Positions 1 through 6,326 of a DNA stretch of 64,000 nt are shown piece by piece. Numbering within the stretch: the stretch's first letter is position 1; every line of letters begins with the position of its first letter. Location of the stretch: assembly GCF_000423025.1 (NCBI RefSeq), contig NZ_AUHE01000002.1, forward strand, positions 186,001-250,000, written 5' to 3'. Origin of the DNA: Gordonia shandongensis DSM 45094 (GTDB lineage Bacteria; Actinomycetota; Actinomycetes; Mycobacteriales; Mycobacteriaceae). A program made the position numbers and the translations under genes. The notes beneath the pieces were generated by a model. That model was not told the origin of the DNA. It worked only from the letters and a program-made list of their open reading frames with translations, and did not search any database.

Positions 1-68
1 TGGCGACGGGAATCGAACCCGTGTGCACGGCTTTGCAGGCCGTTGCCTCACCACTCGGCCACACCACC
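1..68 (-). tRNA. tRNA-Cys(GCA), copy 2, 3' end cut by window edge
   Basis: On the minus strand the sequence folds as a cloverleaf with a GCA anticodon in the CTGCAAA loop and a standard T-loop. The last bases of the acceptor stem lie beyond base 1. It is almost identical to the complete copy at 442-512. It is the second gene of a Gly-Cys pair with tRNA-Gly at 90-162. Confidence 0.93.
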
Positions 69-89
69 AGGTGCGAGGAACTCGCTCCG

Positions 90-162
90 AGCGGATGACG
101 GGATTCGAACCCGCGACCCTCACCTTGGCAAGGTGATGCGCTACCAGCTGCGCTACATCCGC
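90..162 (-). tRNA. tRNA-Gly(GCC), copy 2
   Basis: A complete 73-nt cloverleaf on the minus strand with 7-bp acceptor stem GCGGATG/CATCCGC, discriminator T and GCC anticodon in TTGCCAA. It is the same as the copy at 554-626. Upstream sequence (163-220) also resembles the region upstream of the other copy, so the promoter was probably duplicated with the gene. Confidence 0.95.
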
Positions 163-285
163 GTGTCGGTGAGCATGTCTTGTGGACGATGTCGCTCACC
201 GGCGACACCAAACACTAGCGGGGCGGTCGTCGCAATTGCAAACCGGGTGGCGCGGCGGTGCTTCGAGGTGTCGGTGACGATACGA

Positions 286-309
286 AAGGCCCGGCGGATG
301 CCGGGCCTT
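286..309 (-). terminator. Intrinsic terminator of the first tRNA Gly-Cys-Val unit
   Basis: A perfect 10-bp inverted repeat (AAGGCCCGGC / GCCGGGCCTT, 4-nt loop), followed on the minus strand by TTT. It lies just downstream of tRNA-Val(GAC) and separates the Gly-Cys-Val unit from the second Gly-Cys pair. Confidence 0.75.
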
Positions 310-350
310 CGCCGTGAGAGTCGGTCGCTCCGCGACGGAGTCTGCGATGG

Positions 351-422
351 TGCGCGATACAAGGATTGAACTTGTGACCTCTTCCGTGTCAGGGAAGCGC
401 TCTCCCACTGAGCTAATCGCGC
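351..422 (-). tRNA. tRNA-Val(GAC)
   Basis: A complete 72-nt cloverleaf on the minus strand: acceptor GCGCGAT/ATCGCGC, anticodon GAC in CTGACAC. It is third in the order Gly-Cys-Val, an arrangement also found in mycobacteria. A terminator hairpin follows at 286-309. Confidence 0.95.
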
Positions 423-441
423 GAGAGATTCGGTGCGGTGG

Positions 442-512
442 AGGTGGCGACGGGAATCGAACCCGTGTGCACGGCTTTGCAGGCCGTTGCCTCACCACTC
501 GGCCACACCACC
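442..512 (-). tRNA. tRNA-Cys(GCA), copy 1
   Basis: A complete 71-nt cloverleaf on the minus strand, acceptor GGTGGTG/CGCCACC with one G-U pair, GCA anticodon. It lies between tRNA-Gly (554-626) and tRNA-Val(GAC) (351-422) and was probably co-transcribed with them. It is duplicated at 1-68. Confidence 0.95.
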
Positions 513-553
513 CGAGACGCGTGGCGCCTCGGCGCGAGCCGGGGCTCGCTCCG

Positions 554-626
554 AGCGGATGACGGGATTCGAACCCGCGACCCTCACCTTGGCAAGGTGA
601 TGCGCTACCAGCTGCGCTACATCCGC
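554..626 (-). tRNA. tRNA-Gly(GCC), copy 1
   Basis: A complete 73-nt cloverleaf on the minus strand with GCC anticodon and the same sequence as 90-162. It is the first gene of the Gly-Cys-Val unit and lies downstream of a good promoter at 671-699. Confidence 0.95.
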
Positions 627-846: not shown

Positions 847-918
847 GGTCCCGTGGCTCAGTGGAAGAGCGTCCCGTTCACACCGGGAAGGTCGCTGGTT
901 CGATCCCAGCCGGGACCA
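847..918 (+). tRNA. tRNA-Val(CAC)
   Basis: A complete 72-nt cloverleaf on the plus strand: acceptor GGTCCCG/CGGGACC, CAC anticodon in TTCACAC, discriminator A. It is transcribed away from the other five tRNAs. Its 3' end (906-919) recurs as a 14-bp direct repeat at 1752-1765, as expected when an element has used the gene as an attachment site. Confidence 0.95.
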
Positions 919-919
919 C
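906..919 (+). repeat. Possible attachment-site core in tRNA-Val 3' end
   Basis: The 14 bases covering the 3' T-stem and acceptor of tRNA-Val(CAC), running one base past the gene, are repeated exactly at 1752-1765. Integrases of many genomic islands use tRNA 3' ends, so this may be one half of an att pair. No integrase gene is visible nearby, so the assignment is inferred. Confidence 0.4.
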
Positions 920-939
920 TGCTATTAGGCCAGTTCAGA

Positions 940-967
940 GGCGCTTTCCGTCGACGCGGAGGGCGCC
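940..967 (+). terminator. Intrinsic terminator of tRNA-Val(CAC)
   Basis: A 10-bp stem (GGCGCTTTCC / GGAGGGCGCC, two G-U pairs, 8-nt loop) begins 22 bp after the tRNA. It is followed by the pyrimidine-rich CTTCCTGTTCC. Confidence 0.6.
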
Positions 968-987
968 CTTCCTGTTCCGTGGACTCT

Positions 988-1131
988 CTATGGAAACGGC
1001 TTCAATGCCGAGTCCAGGTGTTCGCTCAACCGCGTGGCCACCTGCTCCAGGTCGTCCGGGTCGGCGTCGAGGAGTGCGGATTGTTCCCACCAGTGGGCGT
1101 GGGTCTGGTGGGTCCACGTCACCCGAGGCAT
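988..1131 (-). CDS. Possible small protein or gene remnant, 47 aa
   Basis: A 47-residue frame on the minus strand begins at ATG 1131 and ends TAG at 988. It contains a Trp-pair segment (HAHWWEQ, residues 11-17) followed by an acidic, amphipathic-looking stretch (residues 22-43). Codons have the high GC3 typical of real genes here, and the peptide reads like protein rather than noise. There is no clear ribosome binding site and I recognise no family. It lies between the two copies of the tRNA-Val att-like repeat, so it may be the C-terminal scrap of a lost gene. Treat as doubtful. Confidence 0.25.
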   Translation of the reverse strand: MPRVTWTHQTHAHWWEQSALLDADPDDLEQVATRLSEHLDSALKPFP

Positions 1132-1281
1132 CGGTGGCCGACTCGATCGGCGCACCGGTCCATGAAACTGTGGGCATCTGACGCTCATCGGTGCGGAGTC
1201 GGCGTGAGATTGCGCCAGGCGTCCTGTGCGCATCATGCGCGATGACCGTGATTGTGCCCGTTCGCTGACTACTGTGGCCTT

Positions 1282-1722
1282 ATGTTCGACGCAGACCCGA
1301 CCGCCGTCGACCTCGGACGGTTCGTGACCTCCGCACCCGAGGCTGTGTGGCGTGCGTTGACCGAGTCCGATCTGGTGGCTCAATGGTTGGCGCGGCCCGT
1401 CGGGATGGTTGCCGAGGTCGGCGTTGTTTTCGTTTTCGAGATCCCCTCCGACCCGCCGGGTGAAGCCGCCTGTGAAGTGCTCGTTGTCGAGCCGAAACGG
1501 CGATTCGAGCACACCTATACAGACCTGCGCGCCAAACGTCCGGCGCGTTGGGTTATCCGATGGTCGCTGGTGCCGAAGGGGCGCGGCACGCGTGTCGTGT
1601 TCCGATTCGATGGCTTCGATGCCAACGACCGGATGCAACGTATGGCGCGCAACGCGCTCGAACGCGGCTACGACCGGACGGTGTTACCCGAACTAGCCGA
1701 ATTCGTGAGTACGATGCGCTAG
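1282..1722 (+). CDS. SRPBCC/AHSA1-like protein
   Basis: This 146-residue protein looks like the AHSA1 branch of the START/Bet v1-like (SRPBCC) superfamily, small helix-grip domains with a hydrophobic cavity. The N-terminus has the family pattern (strand, then APEAVWRALTESD and a Trp), the middle carries strands ending PKRRFEHTY and RWSLVPKGRGTRVVFRFDGF, and a long C-terminal helix closes the fold (about 115-142). Many relatives in actinobacteria have no assigned ligand. I chose ATG 1282 over the upstream TTG 1252 because family similarity starts there. It stands alone within the stretch bounded by the tRNA-Val repeats (906-919 and 1752-1765). Fold fairly sure; function unknown. Confidence 0.75.
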   Translation: MFDADPTAVDLGRFVTSAPEAVWRALTESDLVAQWLARPVGMVAEVGVVFVFEIPSDPPGEAACEVLVVEPKRRFEHTYTDLRAKRPARWVIRWSLVPKGRGTRVVFRFDGFDANDRMQRMARNALERGYDRTVLPELAEFVSTMR

Positions 1723-1751
1723 AACGTCACCGGCATTCAAGCCGGCAACGG

Positions 1752-1765
1752 CCAGCCGGGACCAC
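1752..1765 (+). repeat. Copy of tRNA-Val(CAC) 3' end (att-like)
   Basis: An exact 14-bp copy of tRNA-Val(CAC) bases 906-919, in the same orientation and about 0.85 kb away. The sequences on both sides differ. A specific 14-mer is not expected twice within 1 kb by chance, so this looks like the distal border of a small or decayed insertion. Confidence 0.4.
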
Positions 1766-1889
1766 AAGAATAAGACCCTGGCCCCAACGACTGGCCGATC
1801 GCCTCGACTTCTCCGAGAGCCTTGTATACCCCCGTTCAAACCATCTCGGTGTCGCCGTGAGGGGCGGACCGCTCGGCAGCGGGAGGCAC

Positions 1890-1917: not shown

Positions 1918-2334
1918 GGTATTCGAGTATCGACGATGATCGTCGACGATGCATGGTTGCGTTTATGCAATACTGTATTCTGGTCAGCCGATCCGGTTGA
2001 GCCGTGCGGGAGAGTGCGGTCACGCTGTGAAGGGGGAACACACTGTGGGGGAATTTTCGGACTCGCCGATTCGTCGTCGGCGCTCGCGGTACGCCGTGGA
2101 GGTGTAGATCGTGGCCTTCGGTGACACGCGGAATAACGCAATGACTGATCAAATGATCGTCCATTACAGGCTGAGTCGGCCGTGCAGCAGCGTTCCGCGG
2201 AACAGTCCAACGCCGACCCCAGGTTCTCGCCACCATTCCTGGACTCAGCACGAGGCGATTGCCTCAATGGAAACGCGGTCGATGGAGAAGGTGAACACGG
2301 AGACGCGGTGACGGGTGGTTCAAAGGGGTGTGGG

Positions 2335-2724
2335 GTGGTTCAATTGGTAGGGATACAAGCGGTTTCTGAGCCTGTATCAACTGTCGCTGATTCATCTTCT
2401 TGGGTCTTGGGTGCAGTGGGTATTGTTCTGATGATTGTTGGGCTGTTGGTTTCAACTGCTCTGGTGAGTCGGGGTCGATATTGGTGGGCCTTATCTCCTA
2501 TTTTACCGGCTTCCATACCGTTTTTTGTTGCGTTGACAATTGATTCTGGTTTTCTCGTCGGATTCGTTGGTGTTCTTATGATCGATTGTTATACCTGGGC
2601 GTTGGCGTATGGTAATGGAAGTGGGGAAGTGTTCGTCAAGCGAGATTGGGACGATATCAAAGACCTGTTTTCCTGGATACCCAGAAAGCATCGTAGAGAG
2701 GACTTTCGCGGACCACGTTTCTGA
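2335..2724 (+). CDS. Low-GC small membrane protein of unknown function
   Basis: A 129-residue frame read from GTG 2335, placed 6 bases after AAAGGGG. It has two to three hydrophobic segments: about residues 20-43 (WVLGAVGIVLMIVGLLVSTA), 50-66 and 69-88. A charged, basic C-terminus (about 95-129) rich in Lys, Arg and Asp is probably cytosolic. The same frame is open upstream to 2182, but that part resembles the non-coding flank. Base composition is strikingly lower in GC than every neighbour, with many T-ending codons (ATT, GTT, TTT), so recent horizontal acquisition is likely. I do not recognise a family. The position next to a tRNA att-like repeat fits cargo of a small island, for example an immunity or stress membrane protein, but that is speculation. 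Confidence 0.6.
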   Translation: MVQLVGIQAVSEPVSTVADSSSWVLGAVGIVLMIVGLLVSTALVSRGRYWWALSPILPASIPFFVALTIDSGFLVGFVGVLMIDCYTWALAYGNGSGEVFVKRDWDDIKDLFSWIPRKHRREDFRGPRF

Positions 2725-2864: not shown

Positions 2865-4193
2865 GTGAGAGCAGAGGGCGCGCACGAGCGTCGGGTGACC
2901 TGGCCGATGGTGATCGTGGCGGCTGCGGGAGCCGTCCTGATCATCGCGTGGTGCATCTGGGTGGTACCCATCGATCACCCGGTGTACGGACTGTTCAACA
3001 TGGGCGTCGACAATCACGTGTACCGAGGAGGCGCCGAAGCCGTCTGGAACGGCACCCCGCTCTACGACGGCCCCGTCTACAAAGTCTGGCAGTTCACCTA
3101 CCCGCCCTTCGCCGCCCTGATCCTCGTACCCCTGGCCTGGACGGGACTGCACGGCGCACAGGTGCTGTGGAACATCGGCAACGTGGTGTGCCTGCTCGCC
3201 GTGGTCGCGATGTCGCTGCGCGCCCTGCACTTCCGATTCGACCGCCGCTTCGTCGCATTCGTGATCGGCTTCAGCATCGCCGTCGTCGGGCTCGAACCGG
3301 TTCACACGACGCTGTGGAACGGCCAGATCAACCTGCTGCTGGCGGTCCTGGTGATCGGCGACCTCGCGCGTCGGTCAGGACGCTGGACAGGGATCGGCAC
3401 CGGCCTGGCCGCCGGCATCAAACTCACGCCGATCTTCTACGCCGCCCACCTGATCACGACCCGCCGATGGCGCGCGGCGATCACGCTGATCATCACCTTC
3501 GCGGCCACGATCGCGATCGGGATCGCGGTCCTGGGCTCGCAAGGGGTGGAGTTCTGGACCGTTCGCCTCACCGAGACCGGACGGATCGGCCCCTTGACTC
3601 ACCCGGCCAACCAGTCGTTGAACGGATTCTTCGCCAGGCTGGGGCCGATGGGCCTCGGGAATCCGCCGAACTGGCTGTGGATTCCCACCGGGGTGCTGGT
3701 GGGATGCCTCGGCCTCTGGGCGGCGTGGTCGGCGCACCGCGTCGGCCGCGACCTGCTCGCGATCAGCATCACCGGGATGACGTCAGCGGCGGTGTCCCCG
3801 TTCTCCTGGGGCCACCACTGGGTGTGGGTGGTTCCACTGCTGCTGATCGCCCTCGTCGAAGCCGTCGACGCCGTCGACCGCACCCGCGTCCGGACCTGGG
3901 TGTGGGCACTCGCGCCGATCGCGGTCGTCGCATCGACCTTCACCTGGTGGCGCCGGTCGACCGTCACGTCGCGCGACGGCGTCGAACACCTGCGCCTGCG
4001 ATTCGGGATCTTCCGGTTCATCCGATCCCCGCAGGGGCCCGGCTGGGAGATCGCGCTGCGCCTCGCGGGCAGCGGCGCCTACGTCCTGTTGCTGCTGGCG
4101 ACGATCGCGGTAACGCTGTGGTGGACGCGGCGAGTCGAACCGATACGATTCAAGCCGACCGTGTCCGAAAGCGCGAGCGCGCATTCAGACTGA
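2865..4193 (+). CDS. GT87-family polyprenol-phosphomannose mannosyltransferase
   Basis: A 442-residue polytopic membrane protein of glycosyltransferase family 87 (formerly DUF2029). In mycobacteria such enzymes (PimE, Rv2181) use polyprenol-phosphate mannose outside the membrane to add alpha-1,2-mannose to PIMs, lipomannan or lipoarabinomannan. Signs: a first membrane helix (about 12-34), then an extracytoplasmic loop with the acidic NMGVDNHVY motif (Asp49, the expected catalytic position), a conserved YPP (FTYPPFAAL), WNGQIN further on, and about ten hydrophobic helices. GTG 2865 was chosen because the 24 upstream codons are poorly protein-like. It precedes thrS by 30 bp and lies near the PIM genes, which fits lipoglycan synthesis. 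Exact acceptor unknown. Confidence 0.8.
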   Translation: MRAEGAHERRVTWPMVIVAAAGAVLIIAWCIWVVPIDHPVYGLFNMGVDNHVYRGGAEAVWNGTPLYDGPVYKVWQFTYPPFAALILVPLAWTGLHGAQVLWNIGNVVCLLAVVAMSLRALHFRFDRRFVAFVIGFSIAVVGLEPVHTTLWNGQINLLLAVLVIGDLARRSGRWTGIGTGLAAGIKLTPIFYAAHLITTRRWRAAITLIITFAATIAIGIAVLGSQGVEFWTVRLTETGRIGPLTHPANQSLNGFFARLGPMGLGNPPNWLWIPTGVLVGCLGLWAAWSAHRVGRDLLAISITGMTSAAVSPFSWGHHWVWVVPLLLIALVEAVDAVDRTRVRTWVWALAPIAVVASTFTWWRRSTVTSRDGVEHLRLRFGIFRFIRSPQGPGWEIALRLAGSGAYVLLLLATIAVTLWWTRRVEPIRFKPTVSESASAHSD

Positions 4194-4223: not shown

Positions 4224-6326
4224 GTGTCCGACAATGCCGCCCCCGCGGAAAGACTGTGCCTGCCCGACTCGTTCCGGGTGCCGGCCGGCACGACCGCGGG
4301 CGCCGCGATGCGGGACGTCGAACTCCCCGAGGGCACAGTGCTGCCGAACAAGGGGCCGCAGGCGGTCGTCGTCGTTCGCGAGGCCGACGGCACCCTGCGC
4401 GATCTCGCGTGGGCACCCGAGATCGACACCTACGTGGAGCCCGTCACCGCCGACTCCGACGACGGCCGAGCCGTGATCCGTCACTCGTGCGCCCACGTCC
4501 TGGCCCAAGCGGTCCAGGAGGCGAATCCCGACGCCCACCTCGGGATCGGACCACCGATCGTCGACGGCTTCTACTACGACTTCCAGGTCGACGACCCGTT
4601 CACCCCCGAGGACCTCGCGGCCCTCGAGAAGCGGATGCGCAAGATCATCAAATCGGGTCAGCGTTTCTCGCGGCGCGTCTACGAGTCGAAGGACGCCGCC
4701 CGGGCCGAACTGGCGAACGAGCCGTTCAAACTGGAGCTCATCGACGACAAGGGCGCCGCCGACGACGACGAGATCATGGAGGTCGGCGGCGCGGAACTGA
4801 CGGCCTACGACAACCTCAACCCGCGGACCGGGGAACGGATCTGGGGCGACCTGTGCCGCGGCCCGCACGTGCCGACCACGAAGTACATTCCGGCGTTCAC
4901 GCTGACCCGCAGCTCGGCCGCCTACTGGCGCGGCGATCAGAGCCTCGCGGGGCTGCAGCGCGTGTACGGGACCGCCTGGGAGTCGACCGAGGCGATGGAC
5001 GAGTACCTCGACCGCCTGGCCGAGGCCGAGAAGCGCGATCACCGCCGTCTCGGGTCCGAACTCGACCTGTTCAGCTTTCCCGACGAGCTCGGCTCGGGCC
5101 TGCCGGTCTTCCATCCCAAGGGCGGCATCATCCGCAAGGAGATGGAGGACTACTCGCGCGAGCAGCACGCGGCCGCCGACTACGAGTTCGTCAACACCCC
5201 GCACGTGACGAAGGGGCACCTGTTCGAGGTGTCGAAGCACCTCGACTGGTACGCCGACGGAATGTTCCCGCCGATGCACCTCGACGCCGAGTTCAACGAG
5301 GACGGCACGGTTCGCAAACCCGGCCAGGACTACTACGTCAAGCCGATGAACTGCCCGATGCACAACCTGATCTACCGGTCGCGCGGCCGCAGCTACCGCG
5401 AACTGCCGCTGCGGTTGTTCGAGTTCGGTTCGGTGTACCGGTACGAGAAGTCCGGCGTCGTGCACGGGTTGACGCGGGCGCGCGGCTTCACCCAGGACGA
5501 TGCGCACATCTACTGCACGCAGGAGCAGGTGGTCGAGGAGCTGACCACCACGCTGAACTTCGTGCTGCAGTTGCTCAAGGACTACGGCCTCGACGACTTC
5601 TACCTCGAGCTCTCGACGAAGGACCCGGAGAAGTACGTCGGCACCGACGAGGTGTGGGACCAGGCCACCGAGACGCTGCGCCAGGTCGGCGAGTCGTCGG
5701 GTCTCGAACTCGTGCCGGACCCGGAAGGCGCCGCGTTCTACGGGCCCAAGATCTCCGTGCAGGTCAAGGATGCGCTGGGCCGCACCTGGCAGATGTCGAC
5801 GCTGCAGCTCGACTTCTTCGAGCCCGAACTGTTCGAGCTGGAGTACACCGCCGGCGACGGCACCAAGAAGCGACCGGTCATGATCCACCGCGCGCTGTTC
5901 GGTTCCATCGAGCGCTTCTTCGGCGTGCTGACCGAGCATTACGGGGGCGCCTTCCCGGTCTGGCTCTCGCCGGTCCAGGTGGTCGGCATTCCGGTGGCCG
6001 AAGCCTTCGTGCCGCACCTGCAGGCCGTGGTCGGCCGGTTGAAGAACCGTCGGGTCCGCGCGGAGGTCGACTACTCCGACGACCGCATGCAGAAGAAGAT
6101 CCGCAACCACACCACCGCCAAGGTGCCGTTCATGCTGCTGGCCGGCGAACGCGATGTGGAGGCCGGCGCCGTCAGCTTCCGCTTCCGCGACGGGACCCAG
6201 CTGAACGGTGTGCCCGTCGACGAGGCGATCGTCGCGATCGACGAATGGGAGGAGTCGCGTCGCAACGATTCCCCGACCGCGGACACCATGCAGGAGTTCC
6301 TCGACGCCGCGCGCAAGCGGCGGTGA
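4224..6326 (+). CDS. thrS: Threonyl-tRNA synthetase
   Basis: Class II aminoacyl-tRNA synthetase, 700 residues, charging tRNA-Thr in the cytosol. Domains in order: N-terminal TGS region (about 10-75), editing domain with the HSCAH zinc/hydrolysis motif (87-91), catalytic core with the zinc-binding Cys in KPMNCPMHN and motif 2 in [15 protein letters not shown], motif 3 near [10 protein letters not shown], and an anticodon-binding domain (about 585-690). Length is normal for the family. GTG 4224 follows the site GAGGAG by 8 bases. No T-box leader was seen in the 30-bp space after the GT87 gene. It heads the conserved thrS-HIT-pgsA-patA-pimA run known from M. tuberculosis. Confidence 0.98.

Follow-up and report, generated by a model that had tools for sequence, protein, structure and literature searches.

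The 3' end of a tRNA-Val(CAC) gene in Gordonia shandongensis DSM 45094 occurs a second time a short distance downstream, and the locus raises the question of what process placed a single recognizable gene between the two copies. The window, the whole 64,000-nucleotide stretch of DNA that was analyzed, contains both copies near its left end. We conclude, with a probability of roughly 0.87, that the segment between them is the worn-down relic of a mobile element that integrated into the 3' end of tRNA-Val(CAC) by means of a tyrosine integrase of the kind found in genome G071, a close relative in the genus. A relic of this type is of a known kind, and the rest of the history would be ordinary genome decay. 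The features of the segment and its borders are as follows.

847-919, plus strand: tRNA-Val(CAC), the integration target, called by ARAGORN; attL is formed by its 3'-terminal 14 bases (906-919).
920-1067, no strand assigned: putative left arm of the element, with similarity to the G071 island over 930-1057.
937-969, plus strand: hairpin directly after the tRNA, apparently supplied by the element, from folding of 920-975.
955-1067, minus strand: probable 3' remnant of a gene for a tyrosine integrase, assigned by DNA similarity to G071, with an in-frame stop at 988-990.
1282-1722, plus strand: AHSA1-like gene (Pfam AHSA1), intact and accessory, 146 amino acids.
1752-1765, plus strand: attR core, an exact repeat of 906-919.
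1766-1778, plus strand: original backbone bases formerly 3' of the tRNA.

The initial annotation reported the repeat from inspection of the DNA, and the repeat is exact. The 3' end of tRNA-Val(CAC) at 906-919, CCAGCCGGGACCAC, recurs on the same strand at 1752-1765, and a search of both strands of the complete 3,328,604-base genome locates exact copies at these two positions only. The same pattern read backwards, the control for this count, occurs once. The direct copy at the two segment borders is exactly 14 bp long; ungapped inward extension gives 15/30 matches, i.e. 1/16 past the 14, and outward extension gives 0. The tRNA is 73/73 identical in many members of the genus, and between the copies ARAGORN calls no tRNA.

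A chance or coding coincidence, with the AHSA1-like gene sitting in an ordinary variable intergenic region, is a very improbable explanation of the match. The repeat is only 14 bp, and 11-bp recurrences of the tRNA end do lie near the thrS start in several relatives without integration, where they are taken to be coding or chance matches. However, when 920-2866 was resampled 3000 times under a first-order Markov model, chance produced tRNA 3' suffixes of up to 11 bases (4/3000) and never 14, the 14-mer has no further copy in the genome, and both flanks of the segment have the counterparts in relatives that are described below. The significance of the 14-mer lies in its exactness and its placement, because allowing up to two mismatches gives 3 matches in the window against 1.84 expected by chance.

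Among the open reading frames in the 832 bases that separate the copies, one has a family match, the AHSA1-like gene (Pfam AHSA1, E = 8.6e-14, 52.3 bits versus a curated cut-off of 22.1), and no backbone gene is present. This content agrees with the initial annotation, which had described an AHSA1-like gene and a possible gene scrap; the scrap lies on the minus strand. No intact integrase, replication, transfer or packaging gene is present between the copies, so the segment is not classified as a functional prophage, ICE or satellite. The AHSA1-like gene, whose product is classed as an AHSA1/SRPBCC-like protein, is accessory. It occurs in 15/59 genus genomes including its own (14/58 others), with 41-56% identity in the 11 best matches, and in 0/57 of the other tRNA-Val stretches, some of which end at contig ends and two of which (G063 and G020) cover their intervals in part. 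The segment is thus not conserved in the genus; conservation throughout the genus is what the initial annotation had named as evidence against an insertion. Of eleven AHSA1 loci elsewhere in the genus, a tRNA scan found two tRNAs at one and none at the other 10. Plasmid relatives of the gene were found in six records at 31-59% identity, the best on a Tsukamurella plasmid, and scanning named genomes for the gene yielded no confirmed relative. The segment DNA has no match in the phages searched.

The left end of the segment connects it to an intact island. Window positions 930-1057 align with bases 11-138 past the tRNA-Val(CAC) of G071 (blastn, tRNA excluded, 129 columns, 73%, E = 5.7e-12), and the alignment can be extended with gaps to 1067 with a local score of 81, where the best of 500 Markov-resampled controls scored 28. 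This match to an island with an integrase is a further argument against coincidence. The G071 island (L060 312-10535) is a phage- or satellite-like island of 10.2 kb that sits at tRNA-Val(CAC) and ends in a 48-bp tRNA copy at its far end. It encodes an integrase, an AAA ATPase, an HNH protein, a terminase, a portal and a capsid. The integrase has 433 amino acids (Pfam Phage_integrase, E = 5.7e-21), and about 33 bases separate the end of its gene from the tRNA. The segment and the island share the target tRNA and have similar left ends, in which a hairpin and the C-terminal codons of an integrase lie immediately inside attL. They differ in that G071 keeps the integrase and phage genes and a 48-bp repeat and lacks an AHSA1-like gene at its tRNA-Val. 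Its left end links a tiny islet in which an integrase seemed to be missing to an integrase-bearing island that a close relative carries at this tRNA. As a separate observation, no tail gene is present among the open reading frames scanned in the G071 island, which makes the island a candidate capsid-carrying phage satellite.

The initial annotation saw no integrase, and this part of its description is revised: judged by DNA similarity to the G071 element, the segment probably contains a remnant of the 3' end of an integrase gene. The translation of the scrap is DADPDDLEQVATRL in the window and YADLFEDDLEAVATRL in G071; relative to G071, the window has lost 6 bases and gained a stop. The score of the protein alignment between the scrap and the G071 integrase was reached by 2/1000 shuffles. 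A Y[A/S]DLF..[D/E]L tail is present in 19/20 related integrases of the genus, and a tRNA is present at 14/15 scanned loci of these integrases (15 of the 20 loci were scanned). The translated scrap alone has no match in Pfam or PHROGs, and tblastn against phages (3 records) gave nothing convincing (best E = 6). A profile of the 20 related integrases was searched against 1259 stop-to-stop segments of the window, and the scrap was not among the best matches listed (E = 3.5 and worse). The blastp matches listed for the six frames of 920-1260 included nothing usable. These protein-level results speak against the assignment, and the support for it comes from the DNA alignment. Short scrap-like DNA matches in four other genomes (G011:C28, G000:C3, G072:C49 and G023:C266) have minus-strand translations without a recognizable integrase and were set aside as chance similarity. 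A match to the tRNA end and downstream bases on G011:C57 involves a different tRNA, Arg(CCT), with no integrase recognized by eye among the neighboring open reading frames listed, and was not used as evidence. At this site (L120 3821-3925), some 31 bases similar to window 920-950 come after tRNA-Arg(CCT), possibly another relic.

The right end of the segment retains the sequence that follows the tRNA in relatives. The bases directly after the second copy, AAGAATAAGACCC (1766-1778), match 12/13 of the bases after tRNA-Val in G072, AAGAAGAAGACCC, and 11/13 of those in G077, AACAGTAAGACCC. The bases 3' of the second tRNA copy in G069 match at 10/13. In a genome search, window 1752-1778 aligned with the G072 tRNA end and its downstream bases at 26/27 positions (96%, E = 7.4e-5), and G072 has no further tRNA-end copy of at least 11 bases, i.e. 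its tRNA-Val is unduplicated. None of the relatives matches the 13 bases after the first copy at more than 6/13. The second copy therefore keeps the original right junction (attR), since it precedes the relatives' downstream bases and the first copy does not. This correspondence is likewise at odds with a chance match.

Within the genus, the interval between tRNA-Val(CAC) and thrS is a hotspot of integration. The two genes are consecutive on one contig in the same orientation in 51/59 genomes, own included, and the distance from tRNA-Val to the aligned thrS start ranges from 101 to 66,352 bp with a median of 5,707 bp in these 51 genomes. The distance is only 101-172 bp in 5 genomes, too short for a gene. 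In the remaining 8/59, the genes lie on separate contigs (G026, G033, G070, G078 and G079) or in another order (G007 and G035), and no tRNA-Val match was found in G023. Exact second copies of the tRNA end are present in G071 (48 bp), G019 (30 bp) and G069, G032 and G026 (26 bp each), and near-exact copies in G063 (31 bp, 97%) and G020 (26 bp, 96%). Further copies are located on other contigs in G070 (46 bp, 96%) and G078 (26 bp). A relative of the G071 integrase is encoded just inside the second copy in G019, G069, G032, G026 and G063 (phmmer, E = 2e-6 to 2e-15); phmmer found none there in G020.

Both junctions and the hotspot support site-specific integration followed by decay, and the integration pattern proposed in the initial annotation is borne out to this extent. 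The comparison across the genus that it had suggested gave largely the predicted result. No further exact 14-mer is present in 52/57 other tRNA-Val stretches, a count that leaves out the second copies of G063 and G020, which lie in separate pieces, and the five exceptions (G071, G019, G069, G032 and G026) have longer copies that delimit separate islands. None of the relatives compared, which include no near-identical strain, shows an exact empty site with both flanks. The nearest relatives by thrS (G071, G072 and G066) have other genes between the tRNA and the next backbone gene.

The proposed history starts with a phage-like or satellite-like integrative element that would have used its G071-kind tyrosine integrase to recombine into the 3' end of tRNA-Val(CAC). 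The tRNA would have stayed whole at attL with its 3' end supplied by the element, and the original 3' end with the downstream bases would have been shifted to attR (1752-1778). Deletion would then have stripped nearly everything between, reducing a G071-kind element to the 846 bases at 920-1765. The survivors would be the left arm with the hairpin and the last integrase codons (930-1067), the AHSA1-like gene and attR.

In this history the AHSA1-like gene would be either cargo from near the right end of the element or a later arrival. A less likely but serious possibility is that recombination brought the gene later into the scar of an old prophage and shortened attR to 14 bp in the process. 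It would fit the 48-bp core that accompanies the similar left end in G071, the part of the segment just inside attR, which has no match in the G071 island, the separate replacement of the neighboring block at 1779-2851, and the AHSA1 relatives at other genus loci, 10/11 of them without a tRNA when scanned. It needs one more event, however, and cores of only about 10 bp occur among tyrosine integrases (PMC10865867). The repeat is shorter here than the 7 other duplications at tRNA-Val(CAC) in the genus (26-48 bp), and a short core and a truncated right copy are equally possible reasons for its length.

The alternatives of a decayed element and one mobilizable in trans, left side by side in the initial annotation, differ in support. 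Decay is supported, and it is highly unlikely that an integrase acting in trans could still mobilize the segment. Two direct repeats and a whole tRNA remain, which speaks for such mobilization, but the integrase gene is cut down to its last codons, the repeat is shorter than the seven others at this tRNA, and a search for relatives of the G071 integrase found none in the genome at E = 1e-30.

The hairpin at the left end may have acquired a function. Folding of 920-975 gives -25.5 kcal/mol (z = -2.55; 4/200 shuffles equal it), the G071 counterpart has z = -6.38, and one compensatory C-G/G-C change between the two is apparent by eye. In G072, the bases downstream of the tRNA open a strong hairpin (z = -4.70); the window counterpart is broken (z = -0.94), the backbone terminator hairpin being interrupted past 1766-1778. 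It is conceivable, though rather doubtful, that the hairpin at 937-969 was domesticated as the present terminator of tRNA-Val(CAC), the original terminator beyond attR being broken. If so, the remnant could not be lost without replacing the terminator, and the locus would show a route by which relics in tRNA genes become fixed.

Related systems have been described. Gordonia phages with a tyrosine integrase use tRNA attB sites with common cores of 20-40 bp, and the attB tRNAs in the Table 2 rows listed (to attB-13) are Ala, Arg, Ser, Thr, Lys and Gly, with Val not among them (PMC5559632). The segment shares the tRNA attB and the probable tyrosine integrase with these phages and differs from them in core length, in the tRNA used and in being a relic. 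Within the open-licence literature searched and the table rows listed, no Gordonia attB is assigned to tRNA-Val; the tRNA-Val in PMC13313380 is a phage-encoded tRNA and not an attB. Short-core tRNA-dependent lysogeny (PMC10865867) resembles the segment in its short common core, about 10 bp there and 14 bp here. In that system a phage tRNA takes over from the disrupted host tRNA, whereas here the tRNA is whole and no tRNA lies inside. Small clusters of foreign genes, many adjoining tRNA genes, are read as remnants of integrative elements in PMC2718499, and Mycobacterium has candidate satellite elements located at tRNA genes (PMC10654092).

The DNA to the right of the segment has also been altered. 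It is arranged as follows.

1779-2851, no strand assigned: adjoining accessory block, no repeat bounds found; holds the orphan ORF.
2182-2724, plus strand: orphan ORF; G+C falls to 45-52% at 2301-2700 versus 60-70% for most neighbors.
2867-4193, plus strand: backbone gene, start codon uncertain, with relatives between tRNA-Val and thrS.
4224-6326, plus strand: thrS, backbone.

The block has no counterpart in the other tRNA-Val stretches (best E = 0.45). It occupies the place of an esterase gene and two ABC-transporter genes in G071, G072, G066 and G077; this set is partly kept in G019 and G069, and a search of the 64-kb window found none of it at E = 1e-20. To the right of attR the backbone has thus been changed as well, and no perfect empty site is available for comparison. 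The orphan ORF, whose product is probably a membrane protein as judged by eye, has relatives in 2/58 other genus genomes (G071, 41%; G029, 31%) and no plasmid match. The gene at 2867-4193, which may encode a GT87 mannosyltransferase, has no Pfam or NCBIfam match and is treated as backbone because relatives are present at 20 other tRNA-Val-thrS loci.

Upstream of the segment, tRNA-Cys and tRNA-Gly copies repeat within window positions 1-626, where ARAGORN calls Gly, Val(GAC), Cys and Gly. The window starts inside a further tRNA-Cys-like sequence at about 1-68, recognized by eye. In G071, a Val(GAC)-Cys-Gly set is present twice immediately before tRNA-Val(CAC).
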